Source of the DNA: Phycisphaerales bacterium
GTDB lineage: Bacteria; Planctomycetota; Phycisphaerae; Phycisphaerales; SM1A02
Reading direction: 5' to 3'
Length of the DNA stretch: 64,000 nt
Assembly: GCA_030749435.1 (NCBI GenBank)
Contig: JASMKH010000001.1
Coordinates: 62,001-126,000, forward strand
This document shows positions 16,410-20,802 of the stretch, piece by piece. The notes below the pieces were generated by a model that saw nothing but the letters and a program-made list of their open reading frames with translations, had not been told where the DNA came from and ran no database searches. The translations under genes and the position numbers were made by a program. Numbering within the stretch: the first letter of the stretch is position 1; the number at the start of each line of letters is the position of its first letter.

Positions 16410-17537
16410 ATGCACGACCCACGGATGACCGAGTTGGCGGGGCTGCTGGCCTCGCACTCCACGTCGCTTCAACCTGGCGAGCATGTGCTCATCGAGGCGT
16501 TTGACATTCCAGAGGCCATGGTGATCGAACTCATCAAGGCATGCCGAGAACGCGGGGCCCACCCGCACGTGGCCCTCAGATGCAATCGGGTTCTGCGATC
16601 GCTTGTGGAAGGGGGCAGCGATGCACAGTTCGACGTGATGGCGGCCGGTGATCTGGACCGGATGCAGCGTATGGACGCGTACATCGGGCTGCGGGGCGGG
16701 TTCAATATCAATGAAATGGCGGGCGTCCCCGGGGATCGCATGAAGGCCTGGGGATCGCGGTACATGAAGCCGGTGCACCTCCAGGAGCGGGTGAATCACA
16801 CGAAGTGGTGCGTGCTGCGATGGCCGACGCCGTCCATGGCCCAACTGGCGCAGTCATCTACAGCGGAGTTCGAGGACTTCTACTTCAATGTCTGCACGCT
16901 CGACTACGCAGCCATGGCGGACGCAGCAAGCGTGTTGGTGGAGCGAATGAACCGAACCGACCGGGTTCATCTGGTCGGGCCGGGCGACACGGATCTGCAA
17001 TTCTCCATCAAGGACATTCCTGCCGTTGCATGTACGGGCTCACACAACATCCCGGACGGAGAGTGCTTCACCGCGCCGGTTCGTGATTCGATCAACGGTG
17101 TGATTCAATACAACACGCCAAGCGTGTATCAGGGGCAGAGTGTCCACAGCGTTCGGCTCGAGTTCAAGGATGGCCGGATCATCGGTCACGACGCCGAGTC
17201 CGGAGCCGAACAACTTTCCGGCATCTTTGACACCGATGATGGGGCACGCTATGTCGGCGAATTCGCAATCGGATTCAACCCTCATGTGCGTGAGCCAATG
17301 ATGGACATTCTCTTCGACGAGAAGATCGCAGGGTCGCTTCACTTCACGCCGGGGCAGGCCTACGAGGATGCGGACAACGGCAATCGAAGCGACATCCACT
17401 GGGATCTCGTACTCATTCAACGGCCAGAGTACGGAGGCGGTCGAATCGTGTTTGACGGAGAGGTCATCCGCGAAGACGGGGAGTTCGTTGTGGACGATCT
17501 ACTTCCCTTGAACGCAGCCAATCTGGTCAATCCCTAG
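16410..17537 (+). CDS. M29 family aminopeptidase (AmpS/PepS-like)
   Basis: Thermophilic-aminopeptidase-type metallopeptidase that removes N-terminal residues from peptides in the cytoplasm. 375 residues, starting MHDPRMTELAGLLASHS at ATG 16410; AGAGG lies 12 nt upstream. Visible family landmarks include the GDTDLQFSI strand, the metal-binding ECFTAP segment (glutamate ligand, GSHNIPDGECFTAP, about 212-225), ARYVGEFAIGFNP (second glutamate), and HFTPGQAYED with the following SDIHWDLV (histidine and aspartate ligands). Seventeen bases after the nuclease-like gene. Its 3' end overlaps the convergent MMPL gene by 11 nt. Confidence 0.9.
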   Translation: MHDPRMTELAGLLASHSTSLQPGEHVLIEAFDIPEAMVIELIKACRERGAHPHVALRCNRVLRSLVEGGSDAQFDVMAAGDLDRMQRMDAYIGLRGGFNINEMAGVPGDRMKAWGSRYMKPVHLQERVNHTKWCVLRWPTPSMAQLAQSSTAEFEDFYFNVCTLDYAAMADAASVLVERMNRTDRVHLVGPGDTDLQFSIKDIPAVACTGSHNIPDGECFTAPVRDSINGVIQYNTPSVYQGQSVHSVRLEFKDGRIIGHDAESGAEQLSGIFDTDDGARYVGEFAIGFNPHVREPMMDILFDEKIAGSLHFTPGQAYEDADNGNRSDIHWDLVLIQRPEYGGGRIVFDGEVIREDGEFVVDDLLPLNAANLVNP

Positions 17538-20157
17538 AGGCGTTTCGTCGCAACCGCTGGCCCCGCAATCGGAGTACTGCCGGCAGAACCGTCCACGATG
17601 CTGCCAGCGTGATCAACAGACCGATCACCATGACGATGGCGAGGGACCGCACGCCTCGGTGCGCTGCCAGCATCAGGGCGGCAAATCCGAAGGCGGTGGT
17701 GGCGGTGGTCAGCAGGATCCCCGTTCCGGTGCCTCCCCAGAGTCCGGGAGGTCGGACGCGAGGATCGCTCAGCCAGCGATGCACGACATGGACACCGCTG
17801 TCGACCCCGATGCCGAAGATCAGCGGGAGCACCATGAGGTTGGCGAAGTTCAGGTTCAGCCCGACCAAACCCATGAATCCGAACGTGCCGGCGAATCCGA
17901 TGATGACGGGGAGGAGGCCGCAGCAGGCGTCGGCGATCGATCTGAAGTCGAACAGCAGAATCGCCAGAACCGCGACCAGGGCGAACACGCCGGAGGTCGC
18001 GTAGGCGCGGACGATGAGGCTGGAGGACTCCAGAATCTGCACCGGAGGGCCGAGCACGTCGGGCGCCACACTCCGAACGGAGGAGACAAACTCGTTGAGT
18101 CGATCGGGCTCCAGTATGGACGTGGTTCCGGTTGTGGGCGCGACGCGGAGCAGCCACTGGCCATCGCGGCCAACCCATGAAGCTCGAAGAAACGGTGGCA
18201 GGTCCGAGGCATCCGGGGCGGCCGGGTCGAGGGCCTGTGTCATGGAGTCCGCAAACGCTGGCCGCTGCGCTGCCCACGCTGCCTCGAGTCGCTCAATGCG
18301 GGATCGACGTTCGGCCGCGTTTCCATCGAGGCCGTGCCAATTCCGCAGCGCCTCATCCAGGGCATGCATCATCGGCTTCAGGGCTGGCGTCGCCGCAGTC
18401 TCGCTTCGCAGCCGGTCTCGAATCCTGCCGAGCACGGTGGGCACGAATCCCACCGAGGTTGGCGCGACCTCCGGCTTCGGCGCCGAGGATGCTGCGGACT
18501 TGACGGCCTCCTGCCGCGCAGTGAGATTCGGTGGTAGGAGCATCCCCATGCCACCGACTTCCTCGACCTGATCGAGCGATCGCAGCGCGGTGACGATGTG
18601 CGGCGCCCGGGCTGCGTCGGTCATCACCAGACCGCTCCAGAGGTCGGCGCCGGGTTCTTCCGCAAGCCGCCGCTGCCATGTGACTGCCTCCAGATGCGGC
18701 GGCTGCAGGTTCATGATGTTCGAGTCGTATCGGAGTTGTGACGCCATCGCGATCAACACGGCCGTCACCACACCTGCGACGATGAGCAGGGAGGCGGCGT
18801 GTCGGTGCAGTGGCTTTACAAGCCGCCGAAGCGTGTTGGCGCCGACCGGGCGCATGACCGCGAGGTCATTGCGCCAGCGGTCGGACAGCGCCAACATCGC
18901 GGGGAAGACACTCATGACGGCGATCAGGCAGAGCAGCACGCCGCCCGCCGCGATGATGCCCATCTCGGCGACTCCGAGAAAGGCGCTGAAGGCGGTGCAT
19001 CCGAATGCGGCGGCCGTCGTGATCGCTCCGGTGACGAGGCCGGGACCGACGTCCTGAAACGTCCGCGCCATGGCGTCTGGCAGACGCTCGCCGTCCTGTT
19101 CGATCATTCGAAGTCGGGCGACGATGTGCAGGGCGAAGTCGACGCCGAGCCCGATGAGGATGGCCGAGAACACCATCGAGAGAAGTTGCAGGTGCCCGAC
19201 GGAGATCACGACCCACGCGAAGCTCCACGCGATTCCTACCAGGAGCGCCGTTGCGGCCATCAGGGGAATGCGGATTCGTCTGAATGCAGTGATCAGCATC
19301 AGCGTGACGAGTGCGAATGCGACGAGGGAAGCGATCGTCGAATCCGTGGTGGCCTGCTGCGTCTCGTCGGACTCGATGGCCGGTATCCCCGTGACGCCCC
19401 AGGGCACATCCGCGTCATGTTCCGTTTCGAGCCACCGGGCCACGCTGCTTCGCAGCGAATCGAGCGACAGGGCGATGCCACCGATTGAGTCGCTGGCGGG
19501 CGCCGCCAGCGAGACCATGATCAGTCGGATTCGGCCCGACGCGGTTTGCAATGGAGTCCAGCCCTCACGCAGCGGCGCGAGCAGATCGAACCGGACGGGC
19601 CGGCCCTCGATGGCGTCGACGTAGGGACGGAGCATCCGATCCAACTCGTCGGGCGATGCGTCCGTGGGTTCGTCTCCGCGCTTGAGCATGGTCAGGAGCG
19701 CGTCGGCGGCGGTCGGGGCCGCGGCCACCGCGCGGCCGCGGAGCAACTTCTCAAGTGTGTCCTCAAAGACCGCTTCGGGAGCGACCCGCCACAGCCGAGG
19801 GCCGGCTTCGGCGTTGGCGAAGCCTGCATCGGCGGATTGAATGCCCGGGCTGCTCCGCAGATGGTCCGCGAGTCGCCTCGCAGCTGCGTCGACCGAGTCG
19901 TCGTCCGGTTCGCCTTCGAGGCAGATGACGACGTCGTTCCAGTGGGGGAAGTCCGTTCGGTACATGGCGTACCGCCGCGCCCACGGCAGGTCCTCGGACA
20001 TCAGCGCATTTCGGTCGGCCTTGATCTCCAGGCCCGTTGCAGCCACAACGATGGAGGCTGCGGCGAGCAGGCCACAGATCCACAGCGTCCAGATGGGATG
20101 CGTGGTGACGGCTCGACCCCAAGTCTGGAGCAGGCGATCTCGAATGCGGCGATGCAT
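17527..20157 (-). CDS. MMPL/RND family transporter (HpnN-like)
   Basis: Inner-membrane exporter of 876 residues with the RND layout of two repeats: TM1 (about 20-42), a large periplasmic loop, then TM2-6 (about 270-425); TM7 near 455-475, a second loop, and TM8-12 to the C-terminus. LIGLGVDFALHIVARL and IFGIGVDSGVHVVHRW are the paired TM motifs with the proton-relay aspartate. No outer-membrane partner or adaptor gene is adjacent. The sequence resembles the hopanoid/lipid-exporting MMPL branch, but the substrate is unproven. Start ATG 20157 lies nine bases after a TAGCCT hexamer. Confidence 0.88.
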   Translation of the reverse strand: MHRRIRDRLLQTWGRAVTTHPIWTLWICGLLAAASIVVAATGLEIKADRNALMSEDLPWARRYAMYRTDFPHWNDVVICLEGEPDDDSVDAAARRLADHLRSSPGIQSADAGFANAEAGPRLWRVAPEAVFEDTLEKLLRGRAVAAAPTAADALLTMLKRGDEPTDASPDELDRMLRPYVDAIEGRPVRFDLLAPLREGWTPLQTASGRIRLIMVSLAAPASDSIGGIALSLDSLRSSVARWLETEHDADVPWGVTGIPAIESDETQQATTDSTIASLVAFALVTLMLITAFRRIRIPLMAATALLVGIAWSFAWVVISVGHLQLLSMVFSAILIGLGVDFALHIVARLRMIEQDGERLPDAMARTFQDVGPGLVTGAITTAAAFGCTAFSAFLGVAEMGIIAAGGVLLCLIAVMSVFPAMLALSDRWRNDLAVMRPVGANTLRRLVKPLHRHAASLLIVAGVVTAVLIAMASQLRYDSNIMNLQPPHLEAVTWQRRLAEEPGADLWSGLVMTDAARAPHIVTALRSLDQVEEVGGMGMLLPPNLTARQEAVKSAASSAPKPEVAPTSVGFVPTVLGRIRDRLRSETAATPALKPMMHALDEALRNWHGLDGNAAERRSRIERLEAAWAAQRPAFADSMTQALDPAAPDASDLPPFLRASWVGRDGQWLLRVAPTTGTTSILEPDRLNEFVSSVRSVAPDVLGPPVQILESSSLIVRAYATSGVFALVAVLAILLFDFRSIADACCGLLPVIIGFAGTFGFMGLVGLNLNFANLMVLPLIFGIGVDSGVHVVHRWLSDPRVRPPGLWGGTGTGILLTTATTAFGFAALMLAAHRGVRSLAIVMVIGLLITLAASWTVLPAVLRLRGQRLRRNASRD

Positions 20158-20319
20158 CGGGGGCGGAGGCTATCAGGGAGGTCTCCGCTCGGGATCATCG
20201 GCCGTCCAGACCGCACGACCTGACTTCCCGCAGCCGCCCTCGGCCTGCAATTGGCATCCCGCTTGAGTGGCCCGGGCGGGATGTCGACCTCAGAGGTGTC
20301 GAAAGGGAGTCAGGACGCC

Positions 20320-20802
20320 ATGGAACTTCGATTGGGGCATCTTCTGGTACGCAAGGGTCTTCTGGAGTCCGATCAGGTGGATCGCGTGCTTCGCGAACAG
20401 GACCGGACCGGCGAGCCGTTTGGCGCCATGTGCGAACGGCTCTTCGGTGTGGATCCGAAGGACGTCGAACAGGCGTGGGCCGATCAGTATGCGAGTTTGA
20501 CGCAGACGATCCTGCTTCGTGACGAGCCTCTGGATGCCATCGCGTTGGCACGCTTGAGCAGGCGGCAGGCATGGCAGTTCGGCGCCCTTCCGATGCGATG
20601 GGACGGTGGCGAGTTGATGGTTGCCACGACGCCTGATCTGCTGGTTCGAGCGCACCGCTTCGTCAGTCGGACGATCGAATCGCCGGTCTTCTTCGTGATG
20701 ACTTCCCGAGAGGATCTGGCGGCGGCGCTGCAGCGGGTCTATCCGCTGCCCGGGGGCGTGCTGCCTTCGGGCAGTTCGGGTACCGAGCGATCGGCTGCCT
20801 AG
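20320..20802 (+). CDS. Stand-alone GspE/PilB N-terminal (MshEN-like) domain protein
   Basis: 160 residues with only the N-terminal domain found on type II secretion and type IV pilus ATPases; no Walker motifs. It starts MELRLGHLLVRKGLLESDQV at ATG 20320 (an ATG at 20281 is also in frame). Two consecutive 24-residue blocks, RLGHLLVRKG...VLREQ and FGAMCERLFG...AWADQ, match the tandem MshEN pattern known to bind cyclic di-GMP, though the second begins with F rather than L and has a D insertion. Possibly a free-standing c-di-GMP sensor or adaptor for pilus/secretion machinery. Divergent from the MMPL gene. Confidence 0.75.
   Translation: MELRLGHLLVRKGLLESDQVDRVLREQDRTGEPFGAMCERLFGVDPKDVEQAWADQYASLTQTILLRDEPLDAIALARLSRRQAWQFGALPMRWDGGELMVATTPDLLVRAHRFVSRTIESPVFFVMTSREDLAAALQRVYPLPGGVLPSGSSGTERSAA

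Follow-up and report, generated by a model that had tools for sequence, protein, structure and literature searches.

The MshEN (GSPII) domains of MshE from V. cholerae and PilF from T. thermophilus are the closest described relatives of the protein analysed here. They share with it a two-subdomain fold, tandem 24-residue stretches set five residues apart, the two Gly and two Gln residues of the ligand site, and a near-perfect motif I. In MshE, c-di-GMP is contacted by R9, L10, G11, L25, L29 and Q32 of the first motif and by R38, L39, G40, L54, L58 and Q61 of the second, according to PMC5013675. That study places MshEN domains outside ATPases as well, in REC, HD-GYP and CheA proteins, NfrB and others; Bd2402, a REC-MshEN response regulator of Bdellovibrio, is one of them. 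The MshEN domain of E. coli NfrB is similar over residues 5-143, and 24 of 27 orthologues match it, but NfrB is a glycosyltransferase with the MshEN domain fused on. Stand-alone PilZ proteins resemble the present protein in how they work, as they are small, separate c-di-GMP adaptor proteins. The PilZ fold and motifs are unrelated to MshEN.

Among open-licence papers, none was found on a stand-alone or planctomycete MshEN family, nor any on c-di-GMP receptors in planctomycetes or Phycisphaerales. The available parts of PMC12943098, PMC8316039 and PMC10333796 do not describe a stand-alone MshEN family, and PMC12388122 was discarded as a planctomycete MshEN paper, the match being to the author name Mshensky. 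The protein described below is encoded in the window, a 64-kb stretch of DNA from a Phycisphaerales genome (1.8 Mb in 58 contigs, 84% complete). It is best explained, with fair confidence, as a stand-alone c-di-GMP receptor, a lone MshEN domain produced as its own 160-residue protein, which probably relays the signal to another protein.

Domain assignment and ligand-site motifs

The gene (Table 1) runs from an ATG start to a TAG stop, and close orthologues use the same start Met. NCBIfam NF053729 ('c-di-GMP_motif', a 53-residue domain) matches residues 4-56 with 39.5 bits, a narrow margin over its cut-off of 38. Pfam MshEN (PF05157) scores 36.9 bits over residues 64-144 (cut-off 23.1, E 3.7e-9). 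Both profiles match 27/27 aligned orthologues at E ≤0.001. PF05157 was the only Pfam match to the chain; neither an ATPase family nor a T2SSE domain was detected by Pfam, and the PilZ profile did not match. The earlier note's description of a 160-residue MshEN-like protein without an ATPase part is thus upheld.

Table 1. Features of the MshEN locus and two neighbouring genes, in window coordinates
Feature	Coordinates	Strand	Basis
Stand-alone MshEN-domain gene, 160 aa	20320..20802	+	ORF, PF05157, NF053729, orthologues' shared start Met
AGGGAG, possible ribosome-binding site, 10 nt 5' of the ATG	20304..20309	+	inferred by eye
Motif I, residues 4-27, RLGHLLVRKGLLESDQVDRVLREQ, putative first guanine half-site	20329..20400	+	10/11 consensus positions
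Motif II, residues 33-56, PFGAMCERLFGVDPKDVEQAWADQ, putative modified second half-site	20416..20487	+	P33, G35, W53, Q56 invariant
RRQAWQF, residues 81-87, family-specific C-subdomain helix	20560..20580	+	conservation, model helix 81-87
HpnN-like hopanoid RND transporter gene	17527..20157	-	
Excisionase-type HTH_17 + receiver domain gene, 192 aa	23997..24575	+	

The AlphaFold2 model, built with 27 aligned relatives, has a pLDDT of 91.6. It places helices at residues 5-11, 17-30, 34-42 and 46-60, followed by an alpha/beta part, giving a four-helix N-subdomain and an alpha/beta C-subdomain. The top 20 PDB matches to the model are all MshEN-type domains. The best are the c-di-GMP-bound PilF GSPII-B domain (Z 13.6) and MshE (5htl, Z 12.9), with Foldseek E values of 1e-9 to 1e-7. 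By sequence, the closest solved relatives are the Thermus PilF GSPII domains (E ~1e-7), and the match to MshE is weak (E 0.1). Pfam, NCBIfam and the model agree, and on these predictions the protein is one complete MshEN domain.

The earlier note had also claimed two consecutive 24-residue motifs of the MshEN type. Both stretches are present and are separated by DRTGE, five residues as in MshE, but they differ greatly in quality when scored on the 11 consensus positions of the 24-residue motif (Wang 2016 consensus). Motif I fits at 10/11 positions. By position, R4, L5, G6, V20, L24 and Q27 are the equivalents of MshE R9, L10, G11, L25, L29 and Q32, and elsewhere in the window's six frames every site stays below 9/11. 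Motif II fits at 3/11 positions, only G35, V44 and Q56; here P33, F34, G35, V49, W53 and Q56 stand where MshE has R38, L39, G40, L54, L58 and Q61. The expected alignment with the key Arg, Gly and Leu residues of MshE therefore holds for motif I, and in motif II extends only to the Gly and the Gln. As read from sequence, the protein has one near-perfect motif and one strongly modified motif, not two good ones, and the motif II score is why it is filed as a variant MshEN rather than as a canonical c-di-GMP-binding MshEN. It further differs from MshE and PilF in lacking the ATPase, in lacking an equivalent of MshE D108 (by eye), in having F42 at the position of MshE G47, and in its P33, F34, W53 and RRQAWQF.

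How much modification can such a half-site bear? Two PilF studies (PMC11731258, PMC12002112) bear on this question. The PilF GSPII-A domain does not bind c-di-GMP despite a better motif II score (45%), which speaks against a receptor with 3/11. However, GSPII-A has lost both Gln and Gly and carries a Ser at position 1. In the GSPII-A series, measurable binding depended on both Gln residues and on position 1 not being Ser, and the Gly was required for high affinity. GSPII-C binds c-di-GMP although its motif II starts with Pro335, and in GSPII-B a Lys or Leu at position 1 accompanies high affinity. On these data, the family has kept the residues that were essential in the PilF studies and departs at positions that are partly tolerant. 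No precedent for Phe34 or Trp53 at their positions was found.

Conservation of the family and the state of the ligand site

The family alignment comprises 69 non-identical sequences with a mean pairwise identity of 44%; at 70% identity they form 47 clusters. Thirteen of its 146 columns are invariant: G6, Q27, P33, G35, E39, E50, W53, Q56, R82, Q86, F87, L108 and F114. The four polar ligand-contact residues (G6, Q27, G35 and Q56) are thus identical in 69/69 sequences, an outcome with a chance of ~4e-5 if columns were uniform, which they are not. The unusual Pro33 and Trp53 are equally constant (69/69). R4 is an Arg in 50/69 sequences and is replaced by Pro, Gln, Lys or His in 19/69, which, like the loss of D108, counts against the receptor explanation. 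In the C-subdomain, R82, Q86 and F87 of the RRQAWQF helix are found in 69/69 sequences and W85 in 65/69. This helix is a candidate partner surface or intersubdomain surface, judging from conservation and the model. In 18 distant or fused domains (loci L131-L147), both Gly and both Gln persist in every case (18/18), but R82 and W85 do not. Ten of these loci (L131-L140, family f11) hold diverged stand-alone MshEN copies that retain these Gly and Gln residues and lack RRQAWQF.

The polar-contact residues, together with the presence of GGDEF and HD-GYP proteins in the genus, make c-di-GMP the likeliest ligand. The earlier note's candidate c-di-GMP receptor accordingly stands as a predicted one, and the 160-residue protein quite probably binds c-di-GMP. 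The main rival is that a former c-di-GMP domain has become a ligand-free adaptor, a constitutive protein-protein module comparable to degenerate PilZ or XpsE N-domains, with Pro33 and Trp53 filling the second guanine pocket. A Trp at the position of MshE L58 could indeed occupy that pocket, and the constancy of P33 and W53 indicates that they are selected and not drifting, as such an adaptor with a 3/11 motif II would have it. The model is also in line with it. Superposed on the bound structures, the ligand-free model gives an rmsd of ~9 Å over 137 residues, and on 2d27 it gives 2.1 Å over 83 C-terminal residues, which suggests that the N- and C-subdomains are placed differently from those of bound MshEN domains. 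However, the adaptor would not explain why both Gln and both Gly, ligand contacts in MshE, are fixed throughout the family and in all 18 distant domains, whose C-subdomain surface has diverged, and PilF GSPII-C accommodates a Pro at position 1. The adaptor is therefore considered unlikely.

The asymmetry of the half-sites, fixed across the family, could alternatively mean that the protein receives a related cyclic dinucleotide such as 3',3'-cGAMP, with guanine in the intact half-site and the other base in the modified one. PMC5013675 reports that V. cholerae MshEN binds cGAMP weakly. On the other hand, G35 is invariant, and its equivalent in MshE reads the guanine O6/N7 through its backbone amide; GGDEF and HD-GYP enzymes are moreover present. 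A cGAMP-type receptor is thus quite improbable, and c-di-GMP remains the preferred ligand.

Distribution of stand-alone and fused MshEN proteins

At E 0.001, a match to the MshEN protein was found in 59/61 genomes, the source genome included. The stand-alone protein is present in 56/61, counting G048, where it takes the form of REC fusions; this count excludes G031, G035 and G036, which have only ATPase-sized matches, and the matchless G022 and G033. In a survey of the class, 51/198 genomes (hand count) have a match at E ≤1e-30: 8/11 in the window's family, 22/23 in other families of the order, 20/26 in family f11 and 1/138 in the others. Elsewhere in the class, most of the listed matches lie in ORFs of ~560-690 aa. 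At phylum level (246 genomes), a match at E 1e-17 was seen in 13, of which only G308 lies outside the order. The gene is widespread in Phycisphaerales, being conserved through most of the order, and in one sister group; it is single and has no fixed operon.

The fusions judged to be real were two proteins of G048 and, more remote from the family, one of G308. In G048, two tandem REC-MshEN genes (G048:C86; L144:64-1464 and L144:1542-2891) with Cys-rich, zinc-ribbon-like tails replace the stand-alone protein; like Bd2402, they join REC to MshEN, whereas the 160-residue protein has no receiver domain. In G308, from another class of the phylum, the MshEN domain is fused to AAA_lid_14 (G308:C118; L147:152-1081). 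Some orthologues lie in long frames (≤668 aa from stop to stop). In six of these examined by eye, two with frames >500 aa, no fused upstream domain was recognisable, and the long frames were regarded as read-through of GC-rich sequence ahead of the true start.

The source genome itself has six MshEN matches, this protein and five T2SSE ATPases in ORFs of 612-666 aa. Six is a minimum because the genome is incomplete. When the six segments were scored against the consensus and their translations compared by eye, both Gly and both Gln were found to be kept only in the 160-residue protein and in one ATPase (G000:C58:6149, L002). The other ATPases lack the second Gln (L001) or the first Gln (L005) or are degenerate (L003 and L004).

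Genomic neighbourhood, c-di-GMP network and proposed action

The earlier note had pointed to the genome context of homologues. All-against-all ORF comparison of 24 and then 41 loci, the window being in both sets, revealed no fixed operon partner across families; among recurring cross-family neighbours, ABC transporter genes forming one large cluster (c4) were the sole exception. The lack of a conserved partner and the housekeeping neighbours in the window's family weigh against a receptor. In that family, the gene is surrounded by genes for an M29 peptidase, a divergent HpnN-like RND transporter, tRNA-Phe, a nitrilase and PEPCK, a synteny taken as inherited and without functional meaning. The transporter gene (cluster c6) recurs in 11/41 loci. 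The HTH_17-receiver gene of the window is possibly the counterpart of cluster c7, which likewise recurs in 11/41 loci.

A GGDEF or T2SSE gene does lie within 4.5 kb of the MshEN gene in 7/41 loci (4 GGDEF, 3 T2SSE). Counted by genes, there are 8 in the 361 kb near the MshEN gene and 0 in the 308 kb that lie beyond this limit in these loci, a contrast with a probability of ~0.007, or ~0.02 with shared ancestry collapsed to 6 events, the 4.5-kb limit having been set post hoc after the loci were inspected. In G040 and G044, the cyclase gene immediately adjoins the MshEN gene, convergent and 49-61 bp apart, and coordinates indicate the same arrangement in G052, a third genome of their family. In G114, genes for a histidine kinase and a REC-GGDEF protein follow downstream on the same strand.

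The remaining parts of a c-di-GMP network are also encoded. GGDEF proteins occur in 61/61 genomes and in 9/9 of the genus, with two in the source genome, one of which keeps the GGDEF motif and an RxxD inhibitory site. HD-GYP (PF13487) is found in 9/9 genomes of the genus and the EAL profile in 0/9, so c-di-GMP would be degraded by HD-GYP, if at all. PilZ is found in 47/61 genomes, yet in 0/9 of the window's genus. The c-di-GMP-I riboswitch was found in 0/9 genomes of the genus, and the control genomes were likewise without a match. The idea that the protein substitutes for PilZ was rejected: it is present in 13/14 PilZ-less and in 43/47 PilZ-bearing genomes (in one, G048, as a REC fusion), so its presence does not track PilZ loss.

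Taken together, the fixed contacts, the fixed change of the second half-site, the clade-specific C-surface, the free genomic position and the presence of a network fit a soluble receptor acting in trans. How would it act? One c-di-GMP would sit in the four-helix N-subdomain. Its first guanine would be held as in MshE, by R4, V20/L24/F34, G6 and Q27, and its second by the modified half-site, by P33, L5/V49/W53, G35 and Q56. Binding would shift the placement of the N-subdomain relative to the C-subdomain, and the C-subdomain surface around RRQAWQF would then bind or release a partner protein, as in stand-alone PilZ proteins. In this explanation we infer that the ligand binds, that the subdomains switch and that a partner responds.

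What might the partner be? The earlier note had suggested that a separate MshEN copy could tune pili or secretion in trans. Action in trans is plausible, since the protein lacks an ATPase part and its gene a fixed operon; the pilus or secretion target is weakly indicated, by 3/41 loci and by the history of the domain. The type IV pilus and type II secretion machinery is nevertheless the likeliest partner class, a tentative assignment with the balance against it. In its specific form, the protein would be a trans-acting subunit of a pilus or secretion ATPase, docking like the ATPase's own N-domain on a PilM/GspL-like partner. This possibility, to which we give a little over a third of our belief, is a special case of the c-di-GMP receptor and does not exclude it. 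The C-subdomain resembles the N1 domain of EpsE from the structure with EpsL (2bh1, Z 7.7), every genome of the genus (9/9) has 7 to 13 T2SSE matches, and of the three loci with T2SSE nearby, one has two T2SSE genes and one has T2SSF next. On the other side, no pilus or secretion ATPase gene lies near the MshEN gene in the window, and MshEN-ATPases occur in the majority of class genomes, whether or not these encode the protein, which makes co-occurrence uninformative.

Should the receptor explanation be true, the range of sequences accepted as a binding MshEN site would become broader. A conserved, small, single-domain protein would also make c-di-GMP output in PilZ-less planctomycetes testable through G6, G35, Q27, Q56 and W53. 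It is a more speculative and less likely thought that stand-alone MshEN proteins have radiated in Phycisphaerales, which would use them beside PilZ adaptors or in their stead. This protein would then be the main soluble c-di-GMP receptor of a PilZ-less genus. Its Pro/Trp second half-site would grip one guanine in a novel manner, perhaps with a changed affinity or ligand, and the signal would pass to a partner through the clade-specific RRQAWQF surface.

Elsewhere in the source genome, an HD-GYP gene directly precedes a PilB-like ATPase gene (G000:C44:1000-6000, L130), which is followed by a further ORF taken for a putative GspF relative. In other genomes of the genus, HD_5 and T2SSE coordinates lie equally near each other.
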